Source: a virus. Taken from it: 24,251 nt of DNA. The notes under the pieces are model-generated. The model was not told the origin of the DNA and made no database searches. It worked only from the letters and a program-made list of their open reading frames with translations. The number at the start of each line of letters is the position of its first letter. Within the stretch, counting starts at the first letter, position 1. The stretch is from the IMG/VR virus record IMGVR_UViG_3300046450_000504, positions 1 through 24,251 of that record. One strand, 5' to 3'. Positions 7,582-24,251 of the stretch are shown here, piece by piece. The translations under genes were made by a program, and so were the position numbers.

Positions 7582-8508
7582 TTAGTTATCTTCTGCAAGG
7601 GATTTGAAGTAAGATAATGTATCGTCCTCATCATCAGCCGAAACTGTTGGTGTGGATTCTACTGCTGGTGCTGCTTGGACAGATTTAACTTTTTCCATAA
7701 AGTTATCGTCTTCTGCGTCATCAGTCTGAGATGAAATCGACTCTGCCGATCTAGCTGTCTTTCCGCCTAGGACCATGTCCAATTTGGATTTAAGCTCTTC
7801 GTAGGTCTTGAATTGTTCTGGAGCGACTACGCCAGCTAAGCTGTGTTGTCTAGCCCAAACCTTTTCAATTTCATCATCATTATCAGATATAGAAGAAGGA
7901 CTTTCAAATTCACTTTTATCATAATTACGATATCCTTCTACTTGTCTGATTTTTAGTTTAAAGTTAGCGCCTTCCCAAAAGTCAAAAGGATTGACTGGGG
8001 TCTCGTCTTCAAACTGAGGTTGCATAACATCTTTAACTTTGTCAAAGATCTTTTTACCAAACTTATAAAGGTATACTTGTCCTTCATTAGCTGGGTTTGC
8101 TTTATCCTCTACTACCATTATATTAGCATAATAACTAAGACGTCTCTTTTGCTTACGAGCAATTTCCTTCTGCGACTCAATACCCGAGTTCCATAATTCA
8201 GAGTTTAATTCTGAAACTGGATCTTGTTTATTAAGTGTAGTAAGAGAGTTCTCAATATACCACTTACCGCCAGGTCCTTGAAATCCATGATTCCAGATCC
8301 TAACCCATGGCATATCCTCGCCTTGAGGTGCAGGTAAAAACCTGATAACGGCATAACCGTTTCCTGCTTTATCTACTGTTGGTTTCCATTCCCTGTCATC
8401 ACCCTTTGAAAAGTTAGATGTTGGGTTTGATATTTTTTCGACTTCCTTCATTAGGTTGTCAAATTTGCCTCGTGAATTCCGAAGCTCCGAAAGTGTACTA
8501 AACGACAT
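7582..8508 (-). CDS. 32: Single-stranded DNA binding protein gp32
   Basis: A 308-aa protein collinear with T4 gp32. It has an N-terminal cooperativity region (residues 1-25), an OB-fold core with NGYAVIRFLPAP, WNHGFQGPGGKWYIEN, RRLSYYANIMVV, VYLYKFGKKIFDKV and FWEGANFKLKI, and an acidic C-terminal tail from about residue 255 for partner binding. It coats single-stranded DNA in replication and recombination. The zinc-binding Cys/His cluster of T4 gp32 is gone; the protein has no cysteine at all, which as I recall also occurs in cyanophage homologues. Start: ATG at 8508 with AGGAG upstream. It follows gp33 and gp59 as in T4, and probably has a regulatory leader. Confidence 0.95.
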   Translation of the reverse strand: MSFSTLSELRNSRGKFDNLMKEVEKISNPTSNFSKGDDREWKPTVDKAGNGYAVIRFLPAPQGEDMPWVRIWNHGFQGPGGKWYIENSLTTLNKQDPVSELNSELWNSGIESQKEIARKQKRRLSYYANIMVVEDKANPANEGQVYLYKFGKKIFDKVKDVMQPQFEDETPVNPFDFWEGANFKLKIRQVEGYRNYDKSEFESPSSISDNDDEIEKVWARQHSLAGVVAPEQFKTYEELKSKLDMVLGGKTARSAESISSQTDDAEDDNFMEKVKSVQAAPAVESTPTVSADDEDDTLSYFKSLAEDN

Positions 8509-8568
8509 ATGTATTCTCCTGTATTTGCGTTGTATTTACGTTGTATAAGAACTATTTCTAGTTCTTGC
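8509..8568 (-). promoter_or_regulatory. gp32 mRNA leader, candidate autoregulatory operator
   Basis: A transcript from the late box at 8574-8581 would start near 8568. It would open with a hairpin of 8-bp stem AAGAACTA/TAGTTCTT and loop GAAA (8547-8566), followed by unstructured A-rich sequence containing two copies of AACG(T/C)AAATAC and then the AGGAG site. T4 gp32 represses its own translation by binding a structured leader followed by unstructured RNA. The layout is similar; regulation here is inferred. Confidence 0.45.
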
Positions 8569-9144
8569 AATTATATTTATAAGGCCTAGATGCTTTAAAT
8601 GAAGGTTATTGGTATTCTTTCCCATAAAGGGAGTATACTTGTTCACCATAAGAACTGTATCTTTTAGTATAAGATCGTCCTTATATTCATTAACAAACTG
8701 TAATCCTTTATTCAGTATAACTACGGTTTCTATTGCTATTTGTTTACCAAGTAGCAGTTTAAATATAAGAGGGTGTCCACTTGCCACAGTGGAGTCTTCT
8801 ATATTATCTTGTTCCATTCTTAATTGAATGGTGTTCAGATCCTGTTCAAATGTATATGCTAACTTCTGTTTGTTAGCTTTCCAAATGTTGTATGTTTCCA
8901 TTGCCTCGGAATCAAACATTCCGTGCCAACGTTTGCCACTAACAAAGTTAGCGACTAATATGTCTATTATGTCCTTCCTGTCGTAATCCCTAGCCATCTT
9001 ACGAAGTACCAATAAGTCTTTACGCTTAAGAAAAGTTTCTCGCTTTCCTCTTGTAGCAAACTTGTGTTTGGTAATATCATAAGACTCTGTAGTAAAGTGC
9101 AACTTCACAGCGAGGTAGATTTTATATACGTCAAAAGGATCCAT
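8536..9144 (-). CDS. 59: Loader of DNA helicase, gp59
   Basis: A 202-aa protein matching T4 gp59 (217 aa), which binds forked DNA and gp32 and loads the replicative helicase gp41. Recognisable segments are FDVYKIYLAVKLHF at the N terminus, ILVANFVSGKRWHG mid-protein, FEQDLNTI, and PLIFKLLLGKQIAIETVVIL, which corresponds to the T4 'YIFKLLQSNIISFETFILL' block. The order gp33-gp59-gp32 matches T4. It starts 1 base after the gp33 stop. Its last codons double as the hairpin of the gp32 leader. Confidence 0.88.
   Translation of the reverse strand: MDPFDVYKIYLAVKLHFTTESYDITKHKFATRGKRETFLKRKDLLVLRKMARDYDRKDIIDILVANFVSGKRWHGMFDSEAMETYNIWKANKQKLAYTFEQDLNTIQLRMEQDNIEDSTVASGHPLIFKLLLGKQIAIETVVILNKGLQFVNEYKDDLILKDTVLMVNKYTPFMGKNTNNLHLKHLGLINIIARTRNSSYTT
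8574..8581 (-). promoter_or_regulatory. Late promoter box upstream of gp32
   Basis: TATAAATA on the minus strand inside the 3' end of the gp59 gene, about 66 bases before the gp32 ATG. Confidence 0.45.
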
Positions 9145-9145
9145 T

Positions 9146-9448
9146 TTATAAAGGTAGCTTAGCGCGTTTCTTTTCTTTTAGAAGATTTAATTCTAATGCT
9201 TCTTCTTTAATTTTGTTTTTTAAGTTGGATGTGAGGAACTTTCCTATACTCTCAATTTCAATTTCTTTTTTAATACAGTAATCACATACAGCATCCATAT
9301 TAGATATTTTACTATTAAAAGCCATTCGCTCCATGTATTGTGAAAATTCTGTAGGAGTATGAAACTCCTTTGTAACTAAAAATATATCTGATATTTTTTC
9401 TTTTGTCATTTCTATCGTGTTATCCACGATTATTCTGGGTGGCATCAT
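9146..9448 (-). CDS. 33: Late transcription co-activator gp33
   Basis: A small helical protein (100 aa) whose C-terminal two-thirds resembles T4 gp33 in plan: MERMAF, then DAVCDYCIKKEIEIESIGKF, and KNKIKEEALELNLL, comparable to T4 'LEENSIPETQFAKF...IEKIQSEAIDENLL'. gp33 bridges RNA polymerase and the sliding clamp gp45 to activate late promoters, which agrees with the TATAAATA boxes here. Position before gp59 is as in T4. The first ATG (9448) has an AGGA site 9 bases upstream but overlaps the epimerase gene by 29 bases. An alternative start at 9409 (MTKEKI) has no strong ribosome-binding site. Confidence 0.8.
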   Translation of the reverse strand: MMPPRIIVDNTIEMTKEKISDIFLVTKEFHTPTEFSQYMERMAFNSKISNMDAVCDYCIKKEIEIESIGKFLTSNLKNKIKEEALELNLLKEKKRAKLPL

Positions 9449-10304
9449 AAGTTTTATTCCTGTCTATCCATTCATTAATATAATTGTGTACATTATGTGT
9501 TGCACCAATGTAAGGGTGTTCGCAAAACGTTCTCTGAGCTTCACCTTGCCTATCGAAAGAATGTACCATAGGGTGATCGAAGCATTTTGCTATTGATAAG
9601 ATTGTTTGAGGATCTCCAGAGCCAAAGTGTGCCGTATTAGGAACGCCTGGATCTGCTAATAACTCTAACATACCTTGTACAACATCGTCTACATGAGTGA
9701 AGTCTCTTTCCTTCTTACCTGTTCCGTATATTGTTAAAGGTTGTCCTTTCAAATAATCTTGTTTAAATTTTCTAACAACTGTGCTATACTCACCGTAGTC
9801 TGCTTCACCAGGCCCATACACGTTGTAGAAAAACATTAAAACATAATCTAATGAATAGAGTCTCTTATATAAGTCTAATGTAGATTCACACACCACCTTA
9901 CTAAATGTATATGGATTTGATTGTGACTCTACATACTGTGTACTAGAAGATGTAGCAAAATATAATTTACAATTAAATACTCTTGCCCAATCTGCTACTG
10001 CACATGTTGTGCTAACATTATTTGTTATTGTTTCTGTAGGATACTCTAAAGCTCTACGAACTCTAGGGCTATTTGCTAAATGAAAAATACAGACGGGTGG
10101 CTCTATAAAACTTTGATGAGGATTAAAATCCTTCACATCACAGTTATGGTATTCGACGTTGTTATGAGTAACGAATACTTTTCCTGTTCTGTTATCATCA
10201 ACTACGGTTACAAAGAACCCTTGTTCTGATAGTCTACGAACTAGGTGGGAACCAATAAATCCACACCCGCCTGTTACAATTACATTTGGTTTATCTGTTA
10301 ACAT
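9420..10304 (-). CDS. NAD-dependent NDP-sugar epimerase/dehydratase (extended SDR)
   Basis: A 294-aa extended short-chain dehydrogenase with the nucleotide-binding motif TGGCGFIGSHL (G12, G15, G18), D36-D37 for NAD ribose, and the catalytic pair Y132-K136 in PYTFSK preceded by ATSSSTQY. FYNVYGPGE and the late segment YGTGKKERDFTHVDDV are typical of NDP-sugar epimerases, decarboxylases and dehydratases such as GalE, RmlB and UDP-glucuronate decarboxylase. I cannot tell which reaction applies. It probably acts on nucleotide sugars for surface glycans or virion glycosylation. A sigma70-type promoter directly precedes it, with predicted transcription start at the ATG itself. Confidence 0.88.
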   Translation of the reverse strand: MLTDKPNVIVTGGCGFIGSHLVRRLSEQGFFVTVVDDNRTGKVFVTHNNVEYHNCDVKDFNPHQSFIEPPVCIFHLANSPRVRRALEYPTETITNNVSTTCAVADWARVFNCKLYFATSSSTQYVESQSNPYTFSKVVCESTLDLYKRLYSLDYVLMFFYNVYGPGEADYGEYSTVVRKFKQDYLKGQPLTIYGTGKKERDFTHVDDVVQGMLELLADPGVPNTAHFGSGDPQTILSIAKCFDHPMVHSFDRQGEAQRTFCEHPYIGATHNVHNYINEWIDRNKTYDATQNNRG

Positions 10305-10310
10305 GTGCTT

Positions 10311-10339
10311 ATTATACGACCTTTAACTGCTTTAGTCAA
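10311..10339 (-). promoter_or_regulatory. Sigma70-type promoter before the epimerase
   Basis: On the minus strand TTGACT (10339-10334), a 17-base spacer and TATAAT (10316-10311). The start codon ATG begins 7 bases after the -10 box, so the transcript is predicted to be leaderless. Near-consensus in both boxes and spacing. Confidence 0.7.
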
Positions 10340-10841
10340 CATCTTTATAGAAGATATGGTTATCTATCTTTACTGTTTTATTATAAACCATAGACCATTT
10401 GGGTTTAACCGCAGGACTATGATACCATAGTGCTCCTTGTGTGACGTCTACTGACTCGTATTCATACATTACTTCTGCTATTAAATGTATGTCTTCCCAC
10501 ACCTTGTAGTCTCTTACTTTGTCAGATTTTCCATCACAATACCAACTGAATTGGCACGAATGTAAATCTATCTTCCCGCTAGGGTAATACTTGGTTTGTT
10601 TAACTACTCCACAAACTGTGTCTGGAAATCTATTATCCTTTACTCTGTTTAATGTAACAAGAGCGACAGCCATTCTGCCTGGTGTTGATTCTCCTCTAGC
10701 TTCAAAATATATATTTTCAGCTAAACAATTTACCTCTTCTTGTGTTGTAGTTACAATCTTTTCTTTATTCTTCATTGTAGCATTTACTTCTTCTGCGATC
10801 ATCATAAACAATATCATCGGTACTGTTATCCATAACTTCAT
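10332..10841 (-). CDS. Secreted cell-wall hydrolase, SleB-like (Hydrolase_2)
   Basis: A 169-aa protein with a hydrophobic N terminus (ITVPMILFMMIA) ending in a plausible signal-peptidase site near VNA-TM at residue 21. The SleB/CwlJ-type domain follows: CLAENIYFEARGE (probable catalytic glutamate E47), GRMAVALVTLNRV, FPDTVCGVVKQ and CQFSWYCDGK, then GALWYHSP. These enzymes cut peptidoglycan. With its own export signal it could reach the periplasm without a holin, unlike the lysozyme at 5606-6064. A strong AAAGGAGG site precedes the ATG. It sits right after the tmRNA gene and may share its promoter. Confidence 0.85.
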   Translation of the reverse strand: MKLWITVPMILFMMIAEEVNATMKNKEKIVTTTQEEVNCLAENIYFEARGESTPGRMAVALVTLNRVKDNRFPDTVCGVVKQTKYYPSGKIDLHSCQFSWYCDGKSDKVRDYKVWEDIHLIAEVMYEYESVDVTQGALWYHSPAVKPKWSMVYNKTVKIDNHIFYKDVD

Positions 10842-10902
10842 ATGGTTCCTCCTTTAATAGTGGGCCCTATTGTAACAGGGTGGTGCCCATACCCCGACTA
10901 GC

Positions 10903-10956
10903 TTATGCCGCTAGTGCGTAACCATTTGCTTCTGCATTTAGTTTGTTTGCTTCTGC
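10903..10956 (-). other. tmRNA tag reading frame
   Basis: From GCA at 10956 the frame reads AEANKLNAEANGYALAA then TAA at 10905-10903. The terminal ALAA is the usual ssrA degron recognised by ClpXP. The resume codon is either GCA at 10956 or the GCA two codons later, giving a tag of 17 or 15 residues. Confidence 0.8.
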
Positions 10957-10959
10957 GTT
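10918..10959 (-). repeat. Tandem 21-base duplication inside the tmRNA tag
   Basis: Two consecutive 21-base units each begin AA(C/T)GCAGAAGCAAA(C/T), translated NAEAN-KL and NAEAN-GY. The first 15 bases differ only at two pyrimidines. Confidence 0.7.
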
Positions 10960-11120
10960 GGAAAATACCAACAAGTCTTCCGCCTTGACTTATTCTCCAC
11001 TTACCTTATTATTCCCTGTCGATCCTAATTCTCCCCCTCATTTTTTATTGGTGGAGGAGCCGGGAATTGCACCCGGGTCCAGAAAACTTTATTCGTAAGT
11101 ATCAACGAACAATAGTATTT

Positions 11121-11149
11121 ATTATACTTTAAAAGCATGTATTTGTAAA
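11121..11149 (-). promoter_or_regulatory. Sigma70-type promoter of the tmRNA
   Basis: On the minus strand TTTACA (11149-11144), a 17-base spacer and a perfect TATAAT (11126-11121). The predicted start near 11114 lies just upstream of the acceptor half of the tmRNA, after the terminator at 11176-11201. Confidence 0.75.
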
Positions 11150-11175: not shown

Positions 11176-11201
11176 TAAAGAAAAGGTGCCTTACGACACC
11201 T
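11176..11201 (-). terminator. Rho-independent terminator
   Basis: On the minus strand AGGTGTC, loop GTAA, GGCACCT, then TTTTCTTT. The 7-bp stem contains one G-T pair that works only in the minus-strand RNA, fixing the direction. It ends the unit containing the 57-aa gene and insulates the tmRNA promoter. Confidence 0.8.
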
Positions 11202-11221: not shown

Positions 11222-11395
11222 TTAAATACCCGTACTTGTAGCGTATATGATACCTATGGGCAATAGTAACGGAGCCGCCATAATCGCTACTAATTGAACC
11301 GCATCACAGATAAGACAAACCTTGTCATTCTCCCTAAGCCTTTCAACGTTGGTTTTCATGTGCTTCGCTACATTGCTGAATGTGGCAGTAGTCAT
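11222..11395 (-). CDS. Small single-span membrane protein, 57 aa
   Basis: An ORF of 57 codons starting MTTATFSNVAKHMKTNVERL and ending YATSTGI. The N-terminal half is charged and contains CLIC. The C-terminal half (about residues 33-52, VQLVAIMAAPLLLPIGIIYA) is a probable membrane span. The start is supported by AGGAGAGG, 5 bases before the ATG. A late promoter box lies 75 bases upstream and a terminator follows the stop by about 20 bases, so it can be a late monocistronic unit. A lysis or membrane role is possible, but I do not recognise the family. Confidence 0.7.
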   Translation of the reverse strand: MTTATFSNVAKHMKTNVERLRENDKVCLICDAVQLVAIMAAPLLLPIGIIYATSTGI

Positions 11396-11739: not shown

Positions 11740-11816
11740 TGGTACGCCCTAGTGGATTCGAACCACTGACCCACAGCTTAGAAGGCTGTTGCTCTATCCA
11801 GCTGAGCTAAGAGCGT
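11740..11816 (-). tRNA. tRNA-Arg (anticodon UCU)
   Basis: A full cloverleaf on the minus strand. Acceptor ACGCTCT pairs with AGGGCGT (one G-T); the D arm is GCTC/GAGC; the anticodon stem ACAGC/GCTGT encloses CTTCTAA with anticodon TCT; the T arm is AGTGG-TTCGAAT-CCACT. CCA is encoded. It reads AGA codons, which are common in this AT-rich genome. It lies 8 bases after the nuclease gene, within the same transcription unit. Confidence 0.95.
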
Positions 11817-11824
11817 CTTGACTT

Positions 11825-12535
11825 TTATGAAGCAGAGTTAGCTAAGTGTGCCATCATATCGTTATTGATCTCTACCACTTCTTTGTTTTCATTTTCGTAC
11901 GCATCTCTAGTCTCAATTAACTGTGGTACAAAATCATCTCTCTTTTCAACCCATATTGCTGGGCCATCATCTTCCTGAGCCATTAGTATTACTGTTTGAC
12001 TTACAGGGATTCCTGTTCTTTCTTCAAACATAATGGCATAAGCAGCACACTGCATAAAATAACTATAGCATTGTGAACGGGTTTTCTTCTTCTTAGATGT
12101 TTTAAAATCTATTACAGAAAGCTTACCCTTGTACTCAGCGATGCAATCTACTTGCCCACCTAGTCTTAGGTGATCTGAATATAAGGTGCCTTCTAAACAA
12201 TGTATATTATCTATATCATTTAATAGTGGGCGGAACTCCCTGTACATCTCTTGATCGAGAATACTAAGTTTAGATACATCCTCATCTTTATTGTTGAGTG
12301 CATCCTCACATAGGGTATGTATTTTTGTTCCTCTTGTAGAAGCAACATTACTTATACGATTAGCTTCTGCCTCACCTACACGCTGACGCCAAGCTTGTAT
12401 AAATGGCTTGGATTTGTGTGATAGTATTGTGGTTACAGAAGGATATAATACACCAGAAGGTGTTTCATACCGCCTTCCGTTTTCTGTATTCTTTCGTTTA
12501 AGTTGTGCTACTTCAACGGGTATATGATTAAACAA
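11825..12535 (-). CDS. RecB-like PD-(D/E)xK exonuclease
   Basis: A 236-aa nuclease of the RecB/Cas4/MGME1 type. It has LYPSVTTILS, H73 in GTKIHTL, E115 (CLEGTLYS), LGGQVDCIAEY with D130, SVIDFKTSKK with D143-x-K145, and the trailing Q162-x3-Y166 motif (MQCAAYA). It likely degrades single-stranded or linear DNA, as in recombination, replication or host DNA turnover; marine T4-like phages carry homologues. The start codon is TTG at 12535, overlapping the stop of the preceding small gene by 8 bases, with GAGG about 9 bases upstream. tRNA-Arg follows directly. Confidence 0.82.
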   Translation of the reverse strand: MFNHIPVEVAQLKRKNTENGRRYETPSGVLYPSVTTILSHKSKPFIQAWRQRVGEAEANRISNVASTRGTKIHTLCEDALNNKDEDVSKLSILDQEMYREFRPLLNDIDNIHCLEGTLYSDHLRLGGQVDCIAEYKGKLSVIDFKTSKKKKTRSQCYSYFMQCAAYAIMFEERTGIPVSQTVILMAQEDDGPAIWVEKRDDFVPQLIETRDAYENENKEVVEINNDMMAHLANSAS

Positions 12536-13419: not shown

Positions 13420-14169
13420 TTAGGTGTTTTCGTGTAAATCTTCCCATGCTACCCGTGCCAAAATGTACTCTTTTACCAGTTCTGAGCGTACAATATCCTC
13501 AGGGCCGAACTCTACTGTGTCAAATGATGGCATACTCTCAGCTATTTGTATGAATTTCTTAAGTCCGGACTTGTCGTTGCTCTTGTATAAGTCAGTCTGT
13601 CTGAAATCCCCACAAAATATGATCTTAGAATTGTGGCCAATCCTTGTCATAATACTGTTAATCTCCATGTCGCTCATATTCTGACATTCGTCAACTACCA
13701 CAATAGAGTTATCTAATGTAATACCTCTAACAAATGATGTACACATAAAGTAGATCTTCTTTTGTTCCATTAGCCGATCGTATGGCTTCTCTTTGTCTGC
13801 GAACAACTCGTCCATCATATTCTGATATGGTATAGAGTACACGTCTATCTTTTCACCGTAATCGCCTGGCAAGTGGCCTATCTCTCTTGAAGGAACAGCA
13901 GATCTAACAATTATTAGTTTACTGTATGGGCCGCCTCTGTGCATAACATCTTCCATCGCCTTGTATAACGCAATAAAAGTTTTACCGGTTCCTGCTGAAC
14001 CGTGTAATAGTAATGCTTGTTTTCTTTTGTATTTTTGCCAGAACTGGTTTTGTGTATCTGTAATTGGATCGAACCGTTTAAGGTCGTGTTCTGTAACTTT
14101 GAGTGGAGTTGATCTCCGTGAATTTTGCTTTTGTTGGTCTTGAACTAGTTGAAGGTTTCTTCTAGCCAT
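13420..14169 (-). CDS. phoH: PhoH-like ATPase
   Basis: A 249-aa P-loop ATPase with Walker A GSAGTGKT (residues 57-64), RSAVPSREIGHLPGD (90-103), Walker B VVVDECQN (157-164) and FCGDFRQTDL, all characteristic of the PhoH family. PhoH genes are very common in marine phages; the exact role is unresolved, with RNA or nucleotide metabolism and phosphate stress proposed. An AGGAG site precedes the ATG by 8 bases. Upstream is a perfect palindrome at 14202-14218, and downstream only a weak hairpin. Confidence 0.93.
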   Translation of the reverse strand: MARRNLQLVQDQQKQNSRRSTPLKVTEHDLKRFDPITDTQNQFWQKYKRKQALLLHGSAGTGKTFIALYKAMEDVMHRGGPYSKLIIVRSAVPSREIGHLPGDYGEKIDVYSIPYQNMMDELFADKEKPYDRLMEQKKIYFMCTSFVRGITLDNSIVVVDECQNMSDMEINSIMTRIGHNSKIIFCGDFRQTDLYKSNDKSGLKKFIQIAESMPSFDTVEFGPEDIVRSELVKEYILARVAWEDLHENT

Positions 14170-14907: not shown

Positions 14908-15867
14908 TTATATCGAATCTAGACGGAGTTTTCTTAACTCTTTTTTGTACGTTAATAAGAATGCAGATACACAATCATCAGTCATATGATTTGGGCTCTT
15001 GGTAGCATCAAATAGATTAAAATCTATAACATTTTTCTGAGCAAACGTCCATAAAGGATACAGATCTTCTATGCTACTTGGTATGTCTATACGGTGATGT
15101 CGGTGTGTGAGTCGCTTATTTAAACTGTTTTCAAAGCAAGAAAATCTTGAAACAAAGGGAGTTACTAAGTTAGGTATAATTACGGACTCTATTGATGTTA
15201 CAATAGCGTGCCATCTAAGAGAGTCTCCGTGTTTCCACTTTACGTTGTTTACATATGAGGTATAGTCTTTCAGGACTTTGGCACGCAAATCTTTATCCTC
15301 GTATGAGGCGGAGGTTTTTGTTTCCCACCCCTCTTGCCACATGTAGTTATTGTCCTCAGATTTGCTAATTGTACAGATACCGTCTGTAATTGAACCTGCG
15401 GCCGCTGTTTCGTTATCAATTATCCTCTGAGGAATGGGATCGAGGGTATATCTTCCTCTATGTCCACTAGCTAGTACATCTCGACAGGGGTGACTATAAC
15501 AAATTACAACTCTATCTTCTGGTTCCATGTATTCTTTACACACCATTAAAGAGTGATACAATTTTACTATACCCCCACCGCCTACGCCTGTGTGAACACA
15601 ATTAAGTCTCTTAGTTATATGACTCCAAATATTTTCACTAGGGAATTGTACAAAGCTATCTCCGAAAAACCATACTCTTGGTACCTTGTTTGATATAGGC
15701 AACACCCTATTTACTTGAGAAGGCTGTACGCCTGGATCGCCGTCTTTACGTTTGTTGGGGTAAATATCAGGATCTGATTGCCACATGCGATGTTGGAATT
15801 GATAAGCTACATCGTTTTCTCTCCAATACTCGATGGGAATATTTGGAAATTTAAAAAACTTTGACAT
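14908..15867 (-). CDS. SGNH/GDSL-hydrolase-like protein
   Basis: A 319-aa protein taken from the ATG at 15867 (MSKFFKFP), preceded by GAGGAG at 8 bases; an upstream ATG at 15882 is less likely. VWFFGDSFVQFP carries the block I GDS motif with the would-be nucleophile serine (about residue 71). Then come TGVGGGGI (block II glycine region), VICYSHP, and NHMTDD near the C terminus, where the family has its catalytic Asp-x-x-His. Such proteins are esterases or O-acetyl transfer/removal enzymes acting on sugars. It closes the radical SAM/carbamoyltransferase operon, overlapping the upstream gene by 17 bases. Substrate unknown; a glycan is a reasonable inference. Confidence 0.65.
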   Translation of the reverse strand: MSKFFKFPNIPIEYWRENDVAYQFQHRMWQSDPDIYPNKRKDGDPGVQPSQVNRVLPISNKVPRVWFFGDSFVQFPSENIWSHITKRLNCVHTGVGGGGIVKLYHSLMVCKEYMEPEDRVVICYSHPCRDVLASGHRGRYTLDPIPQRIIDNETAAAGSITDGICTISKSEDNNYMWQEGWETKTSASYEDKDLRAKVLKDYTSYVNNVKWKHGDSLRWHAIVTSIESVIIPNLVTPFVSRFSCFENSLNKRLTHRHHRIDIPSSIEDLYPLWTFAQKNVIDFNLFDATKSPNHMTDDCVSAFLLTYKKELRKLRLDSI

Positions 15868-17260
15868 TATACAGCTCCTCAAATCTATTACCGTCTTCTA
15901 TCGTATTTACCATAGGGTGACCTTTGATGTTTAAACTTGTATTAAGTAACATAGGACACCCTGTTTTTATATAGAACGTTTTTAGGAGCTTATATAACCC
16001 TGGATGTTGTTCTTTGTTAACAGTTTGAACCCTAGACGTGCCGTCAGCGTGCAATATTGCTGGGTACAGTTCTTTCTTTGTACATTGTATAACGTACTGC
16101 ATATAAGGCGAGTCGCTTACTGGCATATTAAAACATGTTCCAGCATACTCCTCCATTATAACAGGTGCAAACGGCCTAAACTCTTGTCGTCTTTTTATTG
16201 CGTTAACCTTGTCCTTAATGTCTTCGCCTCTAGGGTCTGCAAACAAACTTCTATTACCCAATGCTCGTGGCCCAAACTCTGCTCGTCCATTTGCTACTCC
16301 AACCATGTTGCCTTGTAACAACTCACCTAAAGCTTTTTGCACAGGATATTCACCTTCAATATTGTGGCCGAGATAAGGGCCTCTCCAATTAACGTGTTCT
16401 TGTGTGGATGCTAGTACTGCTCCTAACGAAGAACCAGAGTCTCCAGGAGCTGGCATTATCCAAATGTTATCGTAATGCTTTAATGCTAAATTATTAGCCA
16501 CACAATTTAATGCACACCCTCCCATAATTACTAAGTTTTCATTGTGGGGTAACATTAATTTTGCTTTGACAACTAACTTCTCAAATTCTTCTTCATATAT
16601 TTTCTGCGCTGAGGCTGCAAAGTCATAATAGTCTTTAACATGAGGTAGAAAATTGCGACAACCTTTATGTAGGTTAGTGTCTAATAAATCTCTCATCGGT
16701 TTATAATATCTGTTAGGGTCGCCGTACGCAGCCATACCCATTAAAATATATTCTTCTTCATTTGGCTTTAGGTAGCATCTATGTGTAATAGCAGAGTAAA
16801 ACAATCCCAACGATGTCGGGTATCGTTGACTCCATATTTTATGTAAGCCGTGATGAGGAACTCCGTCCCATATGCTTGTAGTAGTAAACTCTCCAATAGC
16901 ATCTATAACGAGAACTGTTGCGTTTTGATATGGACTAGTATAAAATCCTGCCGCTGCGTGTGTAGTATGGTGTGTATGAAAGTTTATTTTGCGTTTCTTT
17001 AAATATGGGTGTAGAGGGAGGCGCTTAAGTTTTTGTCCTGCGTATAATCGCCTAAGGTTTTTTAGTTTATTATTCTCATACCAATTAATATCTTCTGGTT
17101 CGCCGAATTTTAATGCTGCTTGTATTAACTCATCAGGTAAGTTTGCATCGTTCTTTATTCCACTATATCGTTCAGACTCAGATGCGAACAGTATCTCGTC
17201 TCCATCAACAACGGAAAGGGCTGCGTTATGGTTGTATGCTGATATGCCCCACCTAATCAT
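15851..17260 (-). CDS. NodU/CmcH-type O-carbamoyltransferase
   Basis: A 469-aa protein with the family's features: AYNHNAALSVV at the N terminus, H97-H98-T-T-H101 in THHTTHAAAGF for metal and carbamoyl-adenylate chemistry, IDAIGEFTTTSIW, MGGCALNCVAN (246-256), PGDSGSSLGA (272-281), GRAEFGPRALGNRS (325-338) and NTSLNIKGHPMV (440-451). Members transfer the carbamoyl group of carbamoyl phosphate to a hydroxyl of sugars or antibiotics. The C terminus stops about 20 residues after NTSLNIKG, where relatives usually continue, so it may be slightly trimmed. It overlaps its neighbours by 8 and 17 bases. Homologues occur in some marine T4-like phages, with role unknown. Confidence 0.88.
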   Translation of the reverse strand: MIRWGISAYNHNAALSVVDGDEILFASESERYSGIKNDANLPDELIQAALKFGEPEDINWYENNKLKNLRRLYAGQKLKRLPLHPYLKKRKINFHTHHTTHAAAGFYTSPYQNATVLVIDAIGEFTTTSIWDGVPHHGLHKIWSQRYPTSLGLFYSAITHRCYLKPNEEEYILMGMAAYGDPNRYYKPMRDLLDTNLHKGCRNFLPHVKDYYDFAASAQKIYEEEFEKLVVKAKLMLPHNENLVIMGGCALNCVANNLALKHYDNIWIMPAPGDSGSSLGAVLASTQEHVNWRGPYLGHNIEGEYPVQKALGELLQGNMVGVANGRAEFGPRALGNRSLFADPRGEDIKDKVNAIKRRQEFRPFAPVIMEEYAGTCFNMPVSDSPYMQYVIQCTKKELYPAILHADGTSRVQTVNKEQHPGLYKLLKTFYIKTGCPMLLNTSLNIKGHPMVNTIEDGNRFEELYNVKVF

Positions 17261-17948
17261 ATATAAAAGGATCGCTGTGTGGTAAGTCTTTTGGTTTCCC
17301 TGTTCTCTTTTTAGGATTATGTTTCACGTTTACCCATTGAAGTTGTTCATTCATTTCTGGGGGTTTCCCAAGTCGAGTTTTATACATGTCTCGACCCTGT
17401 ACATCTTTCAACATGTAGTCTGCTAACTTCATAACTTCTTGTTTAACTTCACCTGCGGTCCATTGAGAAGGCTCTGCTGGATCTACTGTAAAGAATACAC
17501 CTTCATGTAACCAGGAGTTAAATTCACAAAGATAAATCCTACTATGTTTATTATTAAAGTATGGTGAAAATTCGGGTTGGTTCATATGAGATCCAACACC
17601 AGCTGTTATCATCCAACCTACTTTTAAATTTTTATGACAGCCAACCTTTTCAAGTACTTCTTGTGTCCACAACACATCAACATAATAACTCTCTGCGTTG
17701 ATTCGTTGTGGTTTTGAATTATGATTAAAAAATACTAAGTCATATTTCTGCCTTTCAAGTAAATGTATTTGTCTCTCTAGAGATGTCTTACTTCCCCAGT
17801 CTATGTAAATGGCATTAACATTATCTGGTTTGTCTTCCCAATCCTTGTTAGAACTTATAACGTCTATTTCATCATATCTATATGATAATTGGCGTAGCAA
17901 TACCTTACCGTATTTAGAACCACACCCTGTTAATAAGACCTTACTCAT
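17253..17948 (-). CDS. SDR-like Rossmann-fold oxidoreductase
   Basis: A 231-aa protein beginning MSKVLLTGCGSKYGKVLL, with the G8-x-G10-x3-G14 nucleotide-binding loop of short-chain dehydrogenases. It continues YDLVFFNHNS at the strand-4 position, GWMITAGVGSH, and Y130-x3-K134 in PYFNNKH, the likely catalytic pair. It is shorter than extended NDP-sugar enzymes and diverged in the C terminus, so the substrate cannot be named. It sits between the 368-aa unknown and the carbamoyltransferase, overlapping each by 8 bases, suggesting one pathway. Confidence 0.7.
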   Translation of the reverse strand: MSKVLLTGCGSKYGKVLLRQLSYRYDEIDVISSNKDWEDKPDNVNAIYIDWGSKTSLERQIHLLERQKYDLVFFNHNSKPQRINAESYYVDVLWTQEVLEKVGCHKNLKVGWMITAGVGSHMNQPEFSPYFNNKHSRIYLCEFNSWLHEGVFFTVDPAEPSQWTAGEVKQEVMKLADYMLKDVQGRDMYKTRLGKPPEMNEQLQWVNVKHNPKKRTGKPKDLPHSDPFIYD

Positions 17949-19047
17949 GTATCTTTATCTCCATTATTTTGTTTCCGCCGTTGTGTCCGTCCCAAAAGTC
18001 TGCAATATGCTCTTTCCCGTTTATTATACGCCCTAGTGGCCATCCAAAAGGTATTTTATTATCATCAAAGTCTTTACTTTTAGATATTATCCGTCTATCC
18101 TCTCTATCAGAAAATTCAAATCCAAAGTTTACTTGGTGTCCATTATTTATATCAAATTGTTTTGCGTCGTCTTCGTCTATGTATGCTAAACTTGGGCCCT
18201 TACCTAATATACAATCTTGTGGTGCCCACACATCATAATCATCTGATGATTGATACTCGTATAAATGAGGAGGAATGTCTATATATTCCATTGATTTCCA
18301 TTCAATCAGAAATTTCTTTTCTGTCCAGATACCAGGTACCTTGCAGTTCGTTTGTTTCCAGTAATCGGTAGGCATAGGTTGAATTTGTATTGTCTGAATT
18401 TTTGGAAGTTTTGTAACTCTTTTAGACTTTGAATATAATATAGGTTCTACATCATGCACAATATTATTTAAAGCAAGGACAGCATCTCTAAAAGGCACTC
18501 TCATGTTGTCAGCAATTACAAAGTCTCCTTCAAGTTTAACCGTGGTATCGCCATTTGTCCTTTGTATCTTTTCTCTGTCTATGCAATCAACTTCCCAATT
18601 ATATATAAATGATAAATCAAATCTTCTGTGATCCCAACGTTGCCTTCTAGTATTCCATGGGCCTGTTGGATACGCTACTCTCACAAAATATCTATGTACA
18701 GTATTTAATAACTCTCGTGTTTTCTTCTTAGACCTTTTAAAAGATACCTGTTTGGGTGATACGGGAAAATAATTTTCAGGATCTAAAAATGTGTTTATGT
18801 TATCTATTGCATCCTTGAGTTTTTTTTCTTGTAGTCCAAGAAACTTAGATATATTTTCTGAACCATGAATGTCAGTATCGGGGGCAAGCAAACTAAGTCT
18901 TTTTGAAATAAATGGTTCTGCGAACAGTAACTTGTCAACATACCAAGAAACCCACCATTGTACGAAGTCATTATTCAGATCGGGCTCCCAAACAATAGAA
19001 GCTTTCTTTCCAAACGTTTTAGGATTTAATACTACTTCTATTTTCAT
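17941..19047 (-). CDS. Unrecognised protein, 368 aa, in the radical SAM operon
   Basis: Starts MKIEVVLNPKTFGKKASIVW and ends GGNKIMEIKIHE. It is rich in Trp, Asp and Lys and has no signal peptide or membrane segment. Notable segments are FVQWWVSWYVDKLLFAEPF near the N terminus, VRVAYPTGPWNTRRQRWDHR mid-protein and HIADFWDGHNGG at the C terminus. I see no nucleotide-binding or metal motif that names a function. It overlaps the 2OG oxygenase by 4 bases and the reductase by 8. It could be a substrate-binding, scaffold or novel enzyme component of this pathway. Confidence 0.6.
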   Translation of the reverse strand: MKIEVVLNPKTFGKKASIVWEPDLNNDFVQWWVSWYVDKLLFAEPFISKRLSLLAPDTDIHGSENISKFLGLQEKKLKDAIDNINTFLDPENYFPVSPKQVSFKRSKKKTRELLNTVHRYFVRVAYPTGPWNTRRQRWDHRRFDLSFIYNWEVDCIDREKIQRTNGDTTVKLEGDFVIADNMRVPFRDAVLALNNIVHDVEPILYSKSKRVTKLPKIQTIQIQPMPTDYWKQTNCKVPGIWTEKKFLIEWKSMEYIDIPPHLYEYQSSDDYDVWAPQDCILGKGPSLAYIDEDDAKQFDINNGHQVNFGFEFSDREDRRIISKSKDFDDNKIPFGWPLGRIINGKEHIADFWDGHNGGNKIMEIKIHE

Positions 19048-19604
19048 ATATTATCAATATGTAATATTTGATAACCAATAAGTCGAGAGCCAGGACCTGG
19101 GTTGGTTATTGCATGTGTTGTATTCCAGTTGTTTAACATAAACACTCCGGTCCCTTTTAATACAGGGCCCTCGTATCCTAGCTCTAAAAATCTAGTACCG
19201 GAGCCTTGTGGATTGTCTTGTAGGTTTATAATTAATACACCAAAGACATGTCTGTTGTCTATGTGTGGGGACATATCAAAACCTTCGCCGTCTTGTATAA
19301 CTACTCCAATGTCTTTAAACTTTGGCATTCTAAATTTAGATAAAGACTTCATCCACATCTGCCTTACCTCTTCTATATTACTTATATCACCTTGTATATA
19401 CTTTTCTAATATTGTTGTATGTGCGTCCCACGCATCACAAAAGTCTAATTTGTCTATTCCTGGTTTACTTTGTTTTCTTAAATGTACAGTATCTGACTCA
19501 TACCCTTGATCATATGTATCGTCTCCTGTAAACAAATATTGGGGAACATGAAACCCCGTTACTTCCCAAACAGGAAAGTCATTGTCTATTAAATCTAATC
19601 TCAT
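19044..19604 (-). CDS. 2-oxoglutarate/Fe(II) oxygenase-like protein (HxD...H...R)
   Basis: A 186-aa protein with the metal site H114-x-D116 in MSPHIDNRHVFGVLIINL, H164 in NWNTTHAITNPG and R174 in GSRLIGYQ, spaced as in the small 2OG oxygenase fold. IINLQDNPQGSGTRFLEL and GTGVFMLNN give the flanking strands. It should hydroxylate or otherwise oxidise a substrate with O2 and 2-oxoglutarate. It overlaps the radical SAM gene upstream and the 368-aa gene downstream by 4 bases each, so it is almost certainly coupled to them. It differs clearly from the other 2OG enzyme at 6068-6799, which uses an HxH motif. Confidence 0.78.
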   Translation of the reverse strand: MRLDLIDNDFPVWEVTGFHVPQYLFTGDDTYDQGYESDTVHLRKQSKPGIDKLDFCDAWDAHTTILEKYIQGDISNIEEVRQMWMKSLSKFRMPKFKDIGVVIQDGEGFDMSPHIDNRHVFGVLIINLQDNPQGSGTRFLELGYEGPVLKGTGVFMLNNWNTTHAITNPGPGSRLIGYQILHIDNI

Positions 19605-20854
19605 GCTAAATGTTCTCTGTGGTCTGTAGATTTCCGTATCTTTTTGTATGGGTTGTCTTCGTGAGACATTGTGTCGTCTAATACATTCGCCTTACCACAT
19701 GTCTCAGTACATAATGCTAGTTTTCCATTAGCAGTGGTTTTATCCCAATCATCTGAATACACTTTGTTTAACAGGCCGGTGTCTAGTAATTCTTTTAACG
19801 ATATGTTGTGTAGATTAAAATTGTCTAATCCTAACTTTAACATTTTTTCTTTTAATTGGTGGGTTTTAAATGTTATAGATGTTTTTTCTGATTTATCAAT
19901 AAAGGGGATAATAATTCCTATCCAACAACAGGGGGTAACAAAACCACTGGCGGATACATATACCTCTCTGTAGCACCTTGGACGAATTGGTGTGTTGTCC
20001 CACTCTTCTAGATGATGCTGTTTAACACGAGTCAAACCGACTGTGCCTTCTATGTATCTATGCCTGTGTGTATTGTCTGGCATTGTAACTTTGTCAAACT
20101 CTTTATTCTTTGTTGTAATAATATCTGTGTTAGTTGTTTTAATATAGTTTACTTTGTCTTTTTGCTCTGTAGGAGGATATATTTGATATTCAGTTTTACC
20201 TTCTTTGTTTAGAGCTGGCATGGTTGCGTGATTATTTCCATCGTCTAATCCATGAGCTTTTTTAGGTGAAAACTGTTTGATGCCTAACTGTATTGACATC
20301 TCTTTAGCAGCTTTGACTTGTAGTTCGTTGTGTTTAAAAATTAAAAACTCCCAGTCACTATTACCTTCATGTTTAGTATATGCTTTAACATTAGCCATCA
20401 ACTTATCCCAATTTACATTCCTTCTGTATATGTGGTTTGTGTCTTCTAGGCCGTCTATTGAGAATATCATTTTCCATGATTCAGGTCTTTTTGCAAACAG
20501 CATTCCGATCTTATCCCAAATTTTGGGTTGCTTCATGCCTCCGTTTGTGTGCATCTGTACGCCACAATAGTACTTTGTATTATCAAAAACATACTCTAGT
20601 ATAGGGACTAAGTCTTTACATGAACCCGGATCGCCGTGATTGCCACAGAATAAAATCTGTTTCATCTTCATTAAAGTCTCTCTTGGAAACCACTCTTTAA
20701 ACTTTTCTATAGTTATTGACTGTGGGTAAAGTTCAGGAATAACATTGGGGCTATTTTGAAAGTACCGTGGACAGTTAGGACAAATAGAGTTACATACACT
20801 AGATAACTCAATGTGCATCTTGTTTATATTGTCGTATGAAAAATAGCCGCTCAT
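19601..20854 (-). CDS. Radical SAM protein with C-terminal SPASM-like cysteines
   Basis: A 417-aa protein with C21-x3-C25-x2-C28 in SSVCNSICPNCPRYF for the SAM-binding 4Fe-4S cluster. QILFCGNHGDPGSCKDL stands in the place of the usual GGEP, then MHTNGG and FSIDGLEDTNHIYRR. The C-terminal region has C294, C309-C310 (FVTPCCWIG) and C382-x3-C386, resembling a SPASM/twitch auxiliary cluster domain as in enzymes that modify peptides or small molecules. It generates a 5'-deoxyadenosyl radical; the substrate is unknown. It overlaps both neighbours by 4 bases. Unlike the two radical SAM proteins upstream, its auxiliary cysteines are C-terminal. Confidence 0.87.
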   Translation of the reverse strand: MSGYFSYDNINKMHIELSSVCNSICPNCPRYFQNSPNVIPELYPQSITIEKFKEWFPRETLMKMKQILFCGNHGDPGSCKDLVPILEYVFDNTKYYCGVQMHTNGGMKQPKIWDKIGMLFAKRPESWKMIFSIDGLEDTNHIYRRNVNWDKLMANVKAYTKHEGNSDWEFLIFKHNELQVKAAKEMSIQLGIKQFSPKKAHGLDDGNNHATMPALNKEGKTEYQIYPPTEQKDKVNYIKTTNTDIITTKNKEFDKVTMPDNTHRHRYIEGTVGLTRVKQHHLEEWDNTPIRPRCYREVYVSASGFVTPCCWIGIIIPFIDKSEKTSITFKTHQLKEKMLKLGLDNFNLHNISLKELLDTGLLNKVYSDDWDKTTANGKLALCTETCGKANVLDDTMSHEDNPYKKIRKSTDHREHLA

Positions 20855-22245
20855 AATTGTCTCACGGGAATATTTTTTTCTTTTAACGCATCTTGAACTT
20901 CGTTTTGGTGATATCCATAATAGTCAACCATATCATATGGCAAATCCATAAACCATTTATGTGCGTCTGGGTTTGTTAGCTTGTACAAGTCAGGGAGTTT
21001 AATTGTTTTTTGGTATTCGTCCCTGTGTAGCGTCTTACTTTTAATTGCACTTAAATACTCTGGACTATCTAATACATCTACATTCTCCTCTTTAGAACGT
21101 AAATAATATTTTAAAATATCAATTGTTTTTTCTTTGTTTACAAAAGAAGAGTTTTCAAAAGCTTGTATTGCGTGTTCCATTGCTGGTTTAAATATATGTG
21201 TAGGATAAACACATATATCTAAAATACATTGTTGCGCTTTATCTCTTTGGTTGATCATATATAGATGATTTGCCACTCTCATACCTGGCCACTGCTCGAA
21301 GAATTTTATATATCTATCAATGTCAAATATAACAGGAGCTGTTAACACACTTGCTACTTCCATTGTAATACCTGCTTCGTGGAACTCTCTCCAATTCTCC
21401 TCAATAATATCCCACTTGGCACCGTCCCTTGTATACTCCAAGGTTTCATGTGTTCCATCTAAACTTGCCTCAATGCGCAAGTGTTTAAACTTATTTAATA
21501 TCTGGGCGACAGGTTTACCTTTCCACATTCTTCGTGTAAGGTTTGTATTATAATGTACTCTAATGTTATCAATATAATCTGTATATTCCGGATCGTCTCT
21601 CAGTTCTAACATCTTTTCCATTACAGTCCAATGTACAGGTGACATAAATGGCTCACCGCCTGCCCAATAGAAACCTGTTATTCTTTTTTCTACTAAACCT
21701 CTAACCATTTCATCGGCAGTAGCCTTCTCATGTTTCTTATCAACTTTGAAAGGGTTGTTGTATGTACCACCGTTTCCAGGAGAGGCGTTTAACGCTTGCT
21801 CACTAAACATATCTTTAAATAGTTCTATATGCTGAGAACTGTACACTATTCCACACGATACACATTGTAGATTACAATGTATTGTTCTAGAGTCGTAATA
21901 AGATGGCTCACTTACTAAAGCACCACTCTCATTTGTTTCTTCTAATATACTTTTATATACATCTTTTATTTGTCCATCATTTTCAAATGTAGACTCTTGT
22001 CGTAACGATAGTATTCCGTTTTCTTCGTTCTGATAACATGCGTGGCATTCTTTTCGCTTAACACCGTTTAACATATCTAAACGTGTACGTCTCATATACC
22101 CCGAGTTCCAAAACTCTTTTTCTGTTGTTTTTTGTTGTCCCTTTAGGTCGTCAGATATACAGCAATATTTTCTTTCGTAACGACTACCTTGATAGTTTTC
22201 TATCCACGGGAAAATACATAGCGATTTATTAGAATTTGAATTCAT
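20851..22245 (-). CDS. Radical SAM protein with N-terminal twitch-like cysteines
   Basis: A 464-aa protein. Auxiliary cysteines come first: C10 (SLCIFPW), C28-C29 (KYCCIS) and C67-x2-C70 (KECHACYQNE), the 'N-terminal twitch' arrangement. The radical SAM core follows, with C124-x3-C128-x2-C131 (HCNLQCVSC), FYWAGGEPFM (GGEP 196-199), HYNTNL and EASLDGTHETLEYTR. The order is the reverse of classic SPASM enzymes and is seen in a family found in marine phages. Reaction unknown. It overlaps the upstream radical SAM gene by 17 bases and the downstream one by 4. Confidence 0.87.
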   Translation of the reverse strand: MNSNSNKSLCIFPWIENYQGSRYERKYCCISDDLKGQQKTTEKEFWNSGYMRRTRLDMLNGVKRKECHACYQNEENGILSLRQESTFENDGQIKDVYKSILEETNESGALVSEPSYYDSRTIHCNLQCVSCGIVYSSQHIELFKDMFSEQALNASPGNGGTYNNPFKVDKKHEKATADEMVRGLVEKRITGFYWAGGEPFMSPVHWTVMEKMLELRDDPEYTDYIDNIRVHYNTNLTRRMWKGKPVAQILNKFKHLRIEASLDGTHETLEYTRDGAKWDIIEENWREFHEAGITMEVASVLTAPVIFDIDRYIKFFEQWPGMRVANHLYMINQRDKAQQCILDICVYPTHIFKPAMEHAIQAFENSSFVNKEKTIDILKYYLRSKEENVDVLDSPEYLSAIKSKTLHRDEYQKTIKLPDLYKLTNPDAHKWFMDLPYDMVDYYGYHQNEVQDALKEKNIPVRQL

Positions 22246-23485
22246 AATTAAATATATCCTTCCATGGGCCCATTTTACGAGTTTTCTCTACCTCATCAAG
22301 AAAAGTCATTCCTTGATCCCATAGGAATTTCGACTCTTCTTTTGCGTCCAAATAACTTGTTAGGGTAGGGGTTAGTATTTGATGTTTGTATTCTGATTGT
22401 TCTAAATGTGTTTTTACTTTTTGTTTCCACTCTATAGATGCACAATTTAAAGATAGATAATGAGGAAACACTAACATGTTCTGATTAATTGTTGCTATTC
22501 CTAAATCAGGATTTGCATTTCGTTTATCCACAATAGGCTGTGCCCACTTGTAGTAATCATCCAAGTATGGTGCATTAAGAAACTGTACTGTGTTAGTTAT
22601 GTTGACTGCGTATAAAGACGGAGTTTCAAAAAAGAACTTATGTATGTTCTCATCTATTTGTTCCCAGGTGTTACCTTTAACAGGTTTTCTTATCCACTCG
22701 TTAACTTTATCTACACCATCAACAGACATACCTAGAGATACATGTTTAAAGTGTTTCCATATATCCTCATACCAAGTCTCGTATTGAGAACAGTTTGTAT
22801 TGTAACTTATATGAATGTTCTTAGCAACACCCTCTTCAATTAGTCGCTCTAAAAACTTCCAATGGAATGGCATCATAAACGGTTCGCCACCATTGATGTA
22901 CATATACTTTAACGTGTCTTTGTGTTCTAATATTTCTTCAATTTTATCGTTGTTGAACCACTGATATTCTTTATATGTCTTGGGATCTGCAACAACAAAA
23001 TCTAATGCATCGTCCCACTGCTTGTATTCAGATGCAAGCGATGAACTAGAGTCTGGGTTACACATCATACATTTTGAGTTACATAAATTAGACATTCTTA
23101 GATCTAGAAACTCTAGTCTAGGTTTTGTTATGTTTTGTCCCCATCGTTCTCTTTCAACTAAACGTCTGGACTTCCCACCTCTCTTTTCTATCTTGTAACA
23201 GTTGTGGCAAGCAGGTGGCTCGACTCCGGATAACATCTGTTCTCTTGCCCTTATTACATTACTCTTATCCCATAATGTATTTACTGAATCTGTTGCAAGG
23301 TTTAACATTTTGTTTGTTTCCATATCTCTATAGAAACCATCTGAATTGGGGTTCATCATTTCTGATACACAGCACAATCCTACATTTCCGTTAGGGTGTA
23401 GGTTCATGTGGTTAAAGGGTAGAGGACAATACACGTCTGACATGTTTTTATCTGATATGTTTTTAACTTGTATTTTATTAGACAT
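22229..23485 (-). CDS. Radical SAM protein with N-terminal twitch-like cysteines
   Basis: A 418-aa protein related in plan to its downstream neighbour. It has C20 (YCPLPFNHM), C38-C39 (VGLCCVSEM) and C93-x2-C96 (PACHNCYKIE). The radical SAM motif is C135-x3-C139-x2-C142 (NLCNSKCMMCNP), followed by MYINGGEPFMMPFHW (GGEP 179-182), SYNTNC and GMSVDGVDKVNEWIR. The two proteins differ clearly outside motifs, so they are old paralogues rather than a recent copy. It overlaps the upstream partial radical SAM gene by 8 bases. Substrate unknown. Confidence 0.87.
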   Translation of the reverse strand: MSNKIQVKNISDKNMSDVYCPLPFNHMNLHPNGNVGLCCVSEMMNPNSDGFYRDMETNKMLNLATDSVNTLWDKSNVIRAREQMLSGVEPPACHNCYKIEKRGGKSRRLVERERWGQNITKPRLEFLDLRMSNLCNSKCMMCNPDSSSSLASEYKQWDDALDFVVADPKTYKEYQWFNNDKIEEILEHKDTLKYMYINGGEPFMMPFHWKFLERLIEEGVAKNIHISYNTNCSQYETWYEDIWKHFKHVSLGMSVDGVDKVNEWIRKPVKGNTWEQIDENIHKFFFETPSLYAVNITNTVQFLNAPYLDDYYKWAQPIVDKRNANPDLGIATINQNMLVFPHYLSLNCASIEWKQKVKTHLEQSEYKHQILTPTLTSYLDAKEESKFLWDQGMTFLDEVEKTRKMGPWKDIFNYEFKF

Positions 23486-24251
23486 TTACTGCTCCAATCC
23501 TTTCTGGTATTTCTGTGTCTATACTGTTATACCAATCTAAAAAATATTGTGGAAATACATCTATAGTTCTATCTCGACGCATATCGTATTGTGTATAGAA
23601 TCGTTTAAAGTCTCTAATGTTTGCCTTCATATCTGGATCTGCAAAATCATGTCCACGTTCAACTGTTCTAATATAATTAATTAATCTTTCTATATCGCCT
23701 TTTTCCATCGCGTTAAGAAACCTGTCATCTTTATTTATTAGATACCAATCTTCAATTTCTTGGGCTAGTCTGTGTCGTATGTCCATCGGCAATACCATCA
23801 TTGATTGACAAGCAGGGAAACGTAAAAAGTTAATACTAATACCTATGCTCTTGTTTGGATACTGGTGTTTCCATGTAATAACTTGTGTTAGAAACTTTGT
23901 TATATTAAATAAACATAAAGCATTAATAGTCATCATTACTACTGTTCGTTTAATATTAGATTCGGTGAAAACTCGTTCCATGTTTTCTTTCCAGTAATCA
24001 TATTTAAGTCCCCATCTAATATACTCTGCTTCTTTACCTACTGTCTCATTACTAGAGAATAAAGTAAGGTTAGGCATTCCGTGTGACTCTTCAATTAGTC
24101 TATTAATTAATGCTGGCTTAGCACCTAGGTTGGAGTTTAGTCCTACTTCAAATGTGTGGCCTTCTTCTTTAACTTTAGCAAACAACTTCCAAACATCATT
24201 AGACATCAATGGTTCGCCACCTGTAATCCTTAGTGTTCGTAATCCTTTACT
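23478..24251 (-). CDS. Radical SAM protein, C-terminal part (runs off right edge)
   Basis: The frame is open to the window edge, giving at least 257 residues. The first visible residues are SKGLRTLRITGGEPLMSNDV, containing the GGEP motif of radical SAM enzymes, followed by FEVGLNSNLGAK, the 'T/S-N' strand seen in the family. An internal TTG/ATG near 24209 should not be taken as the start, because the frame and the motif continue upstream. The CxxxCxxC cluster motif and any N-terminal twitch domain would lie outside the window. Few cysteines remain in the visible part, so there is no C-terminal SPASM domain. Confidence 0.8.
   Translation of the reverse strand, partial: SKGLRTLRITGGEPLMSNDVWKLFAKVKEEGHTFEVGLNSNLGAKPALINRLIEESHGMPNLTLFSSNETVGKEAEYIRWGLKYDYWKENMERVFTESNIKRTVVMMTINALCLFNITKFLTQVITWKHQYPNKSIGISINFLRFPACQSMMVLPMDIRHRLAQEIEDWYLINKDDRFLNAMEKGDIERLINYIRTVERGHDFADPDMKANIRDFKRFYTQYDMRRDRTIDVFPQYFLDWYNSIDTEIPERIGAVNV

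Follow-up and report, generated by a model that had tools for sequence, protein, structure and literature searches.

On a 24,251-base IMG/VR virus record (hereafter the window, meaning the whole stretch of DNA that was analysed), a marine T4-like myovirus very likely carries a two-piece tmRNA gene that is intact and functional, with an empty intervening segment (IVS) between the two pieces. Covariance models, ARAGORN, and direct sequence reading agree on a complete, circularly permuted gene on the minus strand from 11113 to ~10859, and phage-supplied trans-translation, probably throughout infection, is its most likely function. The usual view takes phage tmRNAs for stray genes captured from hosts; comparison with relatives suggests that the gene has long been a phage one, with promoter logic and an address of its own, and in relatives the spacer between the RNA halves houses real protein genes. 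The permuted tmRNAs of marine T4-like phages are likely to constitute a phage-owned kind, with a composite promoter at a fixed place, an address before gp33, and an IVS cargo slot that stands empty in the window. It can now be tested at what point and for what reason phages provide ribosome rescue, and in what way RNA processing could also serve to release small mRNAs.

Permuted phage tmRNAs as a kind are already known, and the doubt voiced in an earlier, sequence-only reading of the window as to whether they had been described can be laid to rest. The OM43 phage Melnitz encodes a two-piece tmRNA, and 53 two-piece candidates, 50 of them marine or aquatic, were reported among 18,146 phage genomes (PMC9004378; Buchholz et al., 2022), while the tmRNA database lists 79 sequences from bacteriophages, all tmRNA forms counted together (PMC11915505).

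Anatomy and intervening segment of the window tmRNA

The Rfam model for permuted tmRNAs (RF04321, tmRNA_permuted) matches the window over its full length at 11111-10903 (-) with 114.5 bits (E 5.1e-22; gathering threshold 47), the alphaproteobacterial model (RF01849, alpha_tmRNA) matches 11160-10859 (-) with 73.7 bits against a gathering threshold of 50, and ARAGORN, which classes the gene as a permuted tmRNA (tmRNA*), reads the tag AEANGYALAA. Checks of this kind had been proposed in the sequence-only reading, and the permuted two-piece layout, the coordinates, and the 11-base intervening segment that it described are all borne out, on the minus strand: the acceptor piece comes first, followed by the IVS and then the coding piece (Table 1). 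The 5' end of the acceptor piece presumably lies at or near the transcription start.

Table 1. Features of the tmRNA locus in the window.
Feature	Position	Strand	Basis
PhoH, conserved upstream neighbour	13420..14169	(-)	
PD-(D/E)XK (PDDEXK) nuclease, conserved upstream neighbour	11825..12535	(-)	
tRNA-Arg(TCT), between PDDEXK nuclease and tmRNA	11740..11816	(-)	
Intrinsic-terminator-like hairpin AGGTGTCGTAAGGCACCT + TTTCTTT, upstream of tmRNA promoter	11184..11201	(-)	
Sigma70-type promoter TTTACA-N17-TATAAT, 11/12	11121..11149	(-)	sequence
TATAATAAATA, sigma70 -10 overlapping T4/cyanophage-type late box AATAAATA (11123-11116)	11116..11126	(-)	
Acceptor piece: P2 strand, T-arm, acceptor 3' strand, A73, CCA	11049..11113	(-)	covariance models, sequence reading, folding
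T-arm CCGGG-TGCAATT-CCCGG	11076-11060	(-)	sequence reading
Acceptor 3' strand CTCCTCC	11059-11053	(-)	sequence reading
Discriminator A (A73), then encoded CCA	CCA 11051-11049	(-)	sequence reading
IVS ATAAAAAATGA, 11 nt, without ORF (empty form)	11048-11038	(-)	sequence reading
Coding piece: GGGGGAG, P2, tag frame, 3' pseudoknot	10859..11037	(-)	ARAGORN, covariance models, sequence reading
Acceptor 5' strand GGGGGAG	11037-11031	(-)	sequence reading
Tag frame, resume codon GCA, A-EANGYALAA-stop	10903..10935	(-)	ARAGORN, sequence reading
3' H-type pseudoknot: S1 CGGGGT/ACCCTG 6/6, S2 TGGGC/GCCCA 5/5	10861..10896	(-)	
SleB Shine-Dalgarno (SD) AAAGGAGG	10855-10848	(-)	
SleB-type cell wall hydrolase (Hydrolase_2, PHROG endolysin), next gene	10332..10841	(-)	
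NAD-dependent epimerase, SleB operon	9420..10304	(-)	
gp33-type late-transcription coactivator (Trans_coact, E 4e-18)	9146..9448	(-)	
gp59 helicase loader (T4_Gp59_N, 1e-11)	8536..9144	(-)	
gp32 ssDNA-binding protein (1e-44)	7582..8508	(-)	

The tRNA-like domain comprises a 7-bp acceptor stem paired at all seven positions, G3-U70 included, together with the T-arm, the CCA, and a D-loop region (GGNTCGAC); G3-U70 is the alanine identity pair. The tag combines an alanine resume codon with a hydrophobic, proteolysis-inducing end. Both stems of the 3' pseudoknot keep their pairing in relatives despite two-sided letter changes (C-G, T-A, and A-T at the same pair), and a single-strand fold of the window RNA recovers the acceptor stem, the T-arm, and the P2 region. 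The pseudoknot has its counterpart at the 3' end of the alphaproteobacterial model, and the match to both Rfam models is full-length, whereas the T-loop (TGCAATT, not GGCRGTA), a shortened region past the tag, and the lack of an alpha-type precursor 5' hairpin set the window apart from them. Likewise, alphaproteobacterial ssrA genes (SAR11, SAR116, Rhodobacterales) share the layout, the encoded CCA, and a short IVS with the window but have a host-type T-loop, a longer 5' leader hairpin, and no late box (0/108). Judged from its sequence, the window tmRNA is genuine and intact, and belongs to a known kind of phage gene. Separately, GCAGAAGCAAA is present twice, at 10956-10945 and 10935-10924 (-), the second copy beginning at the resume codon, which suggests that a short stretch around the tag start was duplicated.

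The IVS had been considered puzzlingly short; 11 nt is in fact ordinary. Lengths run from 3 to 186 nt in 97 non-redundant viral permuted tmRNAs and from 4 to 40 nt in 110 alphaproteobacterial ones, figures that are ranges seen rather than full distributions because a 0-30 nt gap was the criterion for the main viral sample as well as for the bacterial one. An IVS of 11 nt occurs in both samples, and shorter ones are common (3-9 nt in phages, 4-9 nt in Alphaproteobacteria), which rules out shortness as a special feature of the window. The accepted view is that RNase P, probably together with tRNase Z, processes two-piece tmRNAs (PMC3985003; PMC11915505), and by analogy the window RNA would be cut in the same way.

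A composite promoter and a fixed address

The near-consensus host-type promoter and the upstream terminator noted earlier are both found, the latter as a terminator-like site; the promoter is probably not host-type alone, as its -10 element overlaps a putative T4-type late box. The window box, AATAAATA, differs by one base from TATAAATA, which is exact in most box-bearing relatives, and resembles TATAAAT, the T4 late sequence used in PMC9004378 and PMC3037559. Of 96 viral permuted tmRNAs for which the upstream sequence is long enough, 46 have TATAAATA or TATAATAAATA within 100 nt before the T-arm (37 of these at 45-50 nt), against about 2 in shuffled controls (maximum 6), and no such box was found before any of 108 bacterial tmRNA genes. 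A perfect TTGACA lies 16-18 nt upstream in half of the boxed phage tmRNAs (23/46), with a 5/6 match in another 7, whereas 64 other TATAAATA boxes on the same contigs yielded no perfect and four five-of-six matches; several of the remaining boxed tmRNAs have TATAAT just upstream of TATAAATA by sequence reading. In a second sample of 165 viral tmRNAs, picked by long IVS, the box stands 36-56 nt before the T-arm in 108, and a perfect -35 accompanies 61 of these 108 as compared with 1 of 116 controls. The Melnitz tmRNA promoter likewise reads TTGACA-17-TATAAATA.

Phage permuted tmRNAs thus appear to share a composite promoter, with a T4-type late box at a fixed place and usually a TTGACA –35, which both the host and the phage late transcription machinery look able to read, although TATAAA could serve sigma70 alone in relatives. 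Because the window promoter also contains the T4-type late box, expression of its tmRNA is probably not host-type or early only. The shared composite promoter is new, and no earlier report of it was found.

The window virus is a T4-like myovirus by its gp32, gp33, and gp59 homologues, with a sub-threshold match to the gp19 tail tube (22.0 bits; curated cut-off 28.2), and the earlier reading of the tmRNA as phage-encoded was right. The tmRNA is an operon leader, not a free-standing gene: the SleB Shine-Dalgarno begins about 4 nt past the tmRNA 3' end, and the gp33 gene belongs to the same operon. The order phoH-PDDEXK-tmRNA-SleB-epimerase-gp33-gp59-gp32 is common to the window, L131, L134, L141, L152, L157, and other tmRNA-bearing relatives, while relatives L122-L127 have the same genes, as far as their fragments reach, without a tmRNA; the promoter 20-mer of L122 (AAAGTATAATAAATACTATT) and the SleB start of L123 (TAAAGGAGGAACCATATG) are letter-identical to those of the window. 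Since close relatives keep the promoter, the SleB start, and the neighbours in the absence of the tmRNA, the latter is a cassette with a fixed slot, which it may occupy or leave empty. In L122, L123, and L127, a small basic ORF (MRKKKLKIRNPVAR... or similar) replaces the tmRNA between a like promoter and the SleB Shine-Dalgarno.

Across loci that were not picked by their neighbours, gp33 lies downstream within 5 kb in 26 of 48 phage tmRNA loci and never upstream, and a PDDEXK nuclease precedes the tmRNA in 28 of 60. SleB comes within 1.5 kb of the tmRNA at 4 of 72 unselected phage loci, which rules out adjacency as a general rule; it holds for one sub-lineage. The placement of the tmRNA in a conserved T4-like order, phoH–PDDEXK–[tmRNA]–(SleB–epimerase)–gp33–gp59–gp32, is new; tblastn of gp33 in cultured phages gave no match at the cut-offs used. 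The closest known system is that of Melnitz (Methylophilales phage EXVC044M), a T4-like marine myophage whose ssrA is also a permuted two-piece tmRNA, with a neighbourhood of PhoH, PDDEXK, tmRNA, gp33, gp59, and gp32 and the composite promoter. Melnitz differs from the window in its tag (ANDNYVPVDYALAA), in a SleB located elsewhere upstream, in an IVS of 142 nt holding an ORF preceded by a Shine-Dalgarno (as opposed to 11 nt, empty), and in possessing a glutamine riboswitch, none being found above gathering in the window.

Further features of the window were noted in passing. A 57-aa ORF at 11222-11395 (-), with a hydrophobic C-terminal half (MTTATFSNVAKHMKTNVERLRENDKVCLICDAVQLVAIMAAPLLLPIGIIYATSTGI), lies directly before the terminator and the tmRNA promoter, and L124 and L127 contain a similar reading on the strand opposite to SleB. 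The stretch 15851-24209 (-) holds a long run of metabolic-looking ORFs, e.g., a carbamoyltransferase-like protein, and three proteins with CxxxCxxC motifs that resemble radical-SAM enzymes.

Ancestry, alternative readings, and proposed working

There is only a very small chance that the window tmRNA is a recently captured host ssrA gene. On a tree of 205 tmRNAs (96 phage, 109 bacterial), the phage and bacterium labels need 3 changes as against 68 when shuffled, and the rows nearest to the window tmRNA are phage; on an 80-row tree, a branch with support 99 separates the 35 bacterial tmRNAs from the rest. Capture is accommodated by the AU test on the 80-row set, which had few columns and a long window branch and in which a tree placing the window among bacteria, with alphaproteobacterial tmRNAs, is not rejected (p 0.68). 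It also gains from the viral contig L060, whose tmRNA sits inside the Rhodobacterales set and which is a possible real host capture or prophage. Against capture stand the phage locus, the phage promoter, the T-loop TGCAATT in place of the host GGCRGTA, and the lack of a host-type 5' hairpin; locus, promoter, T-loop, and pseudoknot together favour a place among the phage tmRNAs. The comparison with host genes that the sequence-only reading had called for does not support recent capture of phage tmRNAs in general. As a strict phage marker, the T-loop TGCRATW was ruled out, being present in 4 of 385 alphaproteobacterial genomes. By direct DNA similarity, the window tmRNA matched phage records over the conserved core only, in two records, and the Melnitz tmRNA, used as query, matched Melnitz strains only.

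The remaining alternatives concern what the RNA does and when. An early-only tmRNA that tags and recycles host proteins, as proposed for Melnitz (Buchholz et al., 2022), would suit the strong sigma70 elements of the window and the position of the Melnitz tmRNA just downstream of an early promoter (PMC9004378), but is unlikely, given that a T4-type late box lies on or beside the -10 in Melnitz and in roughly one half to two thirds of the sampled phage permuted tmRNAs, and in none of 108 bacterial tmRNA promoters. It is improbable that the window RNA serves mainly as a 5' leader, structured and processed, through which expression of the lysis and late-regulator genes that follow (SleB, gp33) is controlled: its 3' pseudoknot abuts the SleB Shine-Dalgarno, no terminator-like site was found when one was looked for between them, and close relatives retain the promoter and Shine-Dalgarno without the tmRNA, yet conservation of the tRNA-like domain and the tag exceeds the needs of a leader, and SleB is not the next gene at most phage tmRNA loci. 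Highly improbable, too, is a decoy or modulator that competes for SmpB or ribosomes and so blunts host trans-translation or changes its tag. Phage DS6A encodes a tmRNA-like RNA without a tag frame whose expression in E. coli reportedly inhibits the endogenous tmRNA (PMC11915505); in the window, by contrast, the tag frame is intact and ends in ALAA, and the acceptor stem keeps G3-U70, as expected of an active molecule.

Phage-supplied trans-translation is the preferred reading, and the ribosome-rescue role suggested earlier is plausible. The anatomy, the promoter and late-box sequences, the gene order, and the conservation in relatives are observed directly; from transcription timing to processing enzymes, charging, and tagging, we infer the following course. 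RNA polymerase would start at ~11113 from the composite promoter, whose TTTACA-17-TATAAT is host sigma70-readable and is joined by the late box, and the transcript would run through the tmRNA and then SleB, the epimerase, gp33, gp59, and gp32. In the precursor, the tRNA-like domain would form and leave the 11-nt IVS as a loop; RNase P would cut at 11038/11037, tRNase Z or exonucleases would finish the CCA end at 11049, and a cut just before the SleB Shine-Dalgarno would free the 3' end. The two pieces would remain paired and be charged with alanine by the host AlaRS through G3-U70. With host SmpB and EF-Tu as partners, the tmRNA would free ribosomes that have stalled on broken mRNA, and the EANGYALAA that it adds would direct the tagged product to ClpXP-type proteases.

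Small genes in the intervening segments of relatives

ORFs of at least 35 codons that are preceded by a Shine-Dalgarno and lie wholly inside the IVS number 39 among 190 distinct phage IVS of 100-165 nt, as against 0.4 expected from shuffles (maximum 2). Similarity clustering separates them into several distinct families, and pN/pS is 0.10-0.35 in the six families tested. The largest family, with a pN/pS of 0.22, encodes a peptide of about 38 aa that is hydrophobic in its C-terminal half (MKNPLVREVSKWMFKAYILWSICADITLLAGIIYLVFF); at 120 of its 134 loci the tmRNA sequence directly follows the stop, the CCA end being visible as well at 113, and the other 14 loci lie elsewhere, some just upstream of a tmRNA. 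The Melnitz IVS holds an ORF different from this family (MFKWLSKTRLVVITRDYF...PKYLSG) that is missing from the features listed in its record, and two permuted tmRNAs (L653, L683) carry inside the IVS a tRNA-Arg(TCT), which in the window lies just upstream of the tmRNA instead. On the cargo-slot reading, such small genes (unrelated proteins of 27-50 aa under purifying selection, and even a tRNA) would be released upon processing of the precursor, and the 11-nt IVS of the window is the empty form of the slot.

The tmRNA database paper names a tRNA and a repetitive element as IVS contents, and no protein genes (PMC11915505). No earlier report of protein genes in a tmRNA IVS was found in a literature search of incomplete coverage, and the protein-gene cargo slot in relatives is apparently unreported. 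Four IVS peptides had no match in PHROGs, and tblastn of the IVS peptide in cultured phages found none at the cut-offs used.

Additional details of these segments were observed. Sequence reading indicates that IVS ends are often inverted repeats. The ~38-aa peptide occurs in L131, L180, L345-L424, and L448-L497 (e.g., L345 7613-7799), its stop falling one base before G1 of the coding piece, and the Melnitz ORF (L121; MZ577097.1, record 45984-46436) is conserved in L324-L341. At least five further families (MDFHWISW..., MYYVMNLK..., MWIYKC..., MDEVILW..., and MSDIVTYL...), with pN/pS well under 1, sit in L498, L502, L529, L584, L598, L593, and relatives, and some of their ORFs read through into the coding piece (...MGAK).
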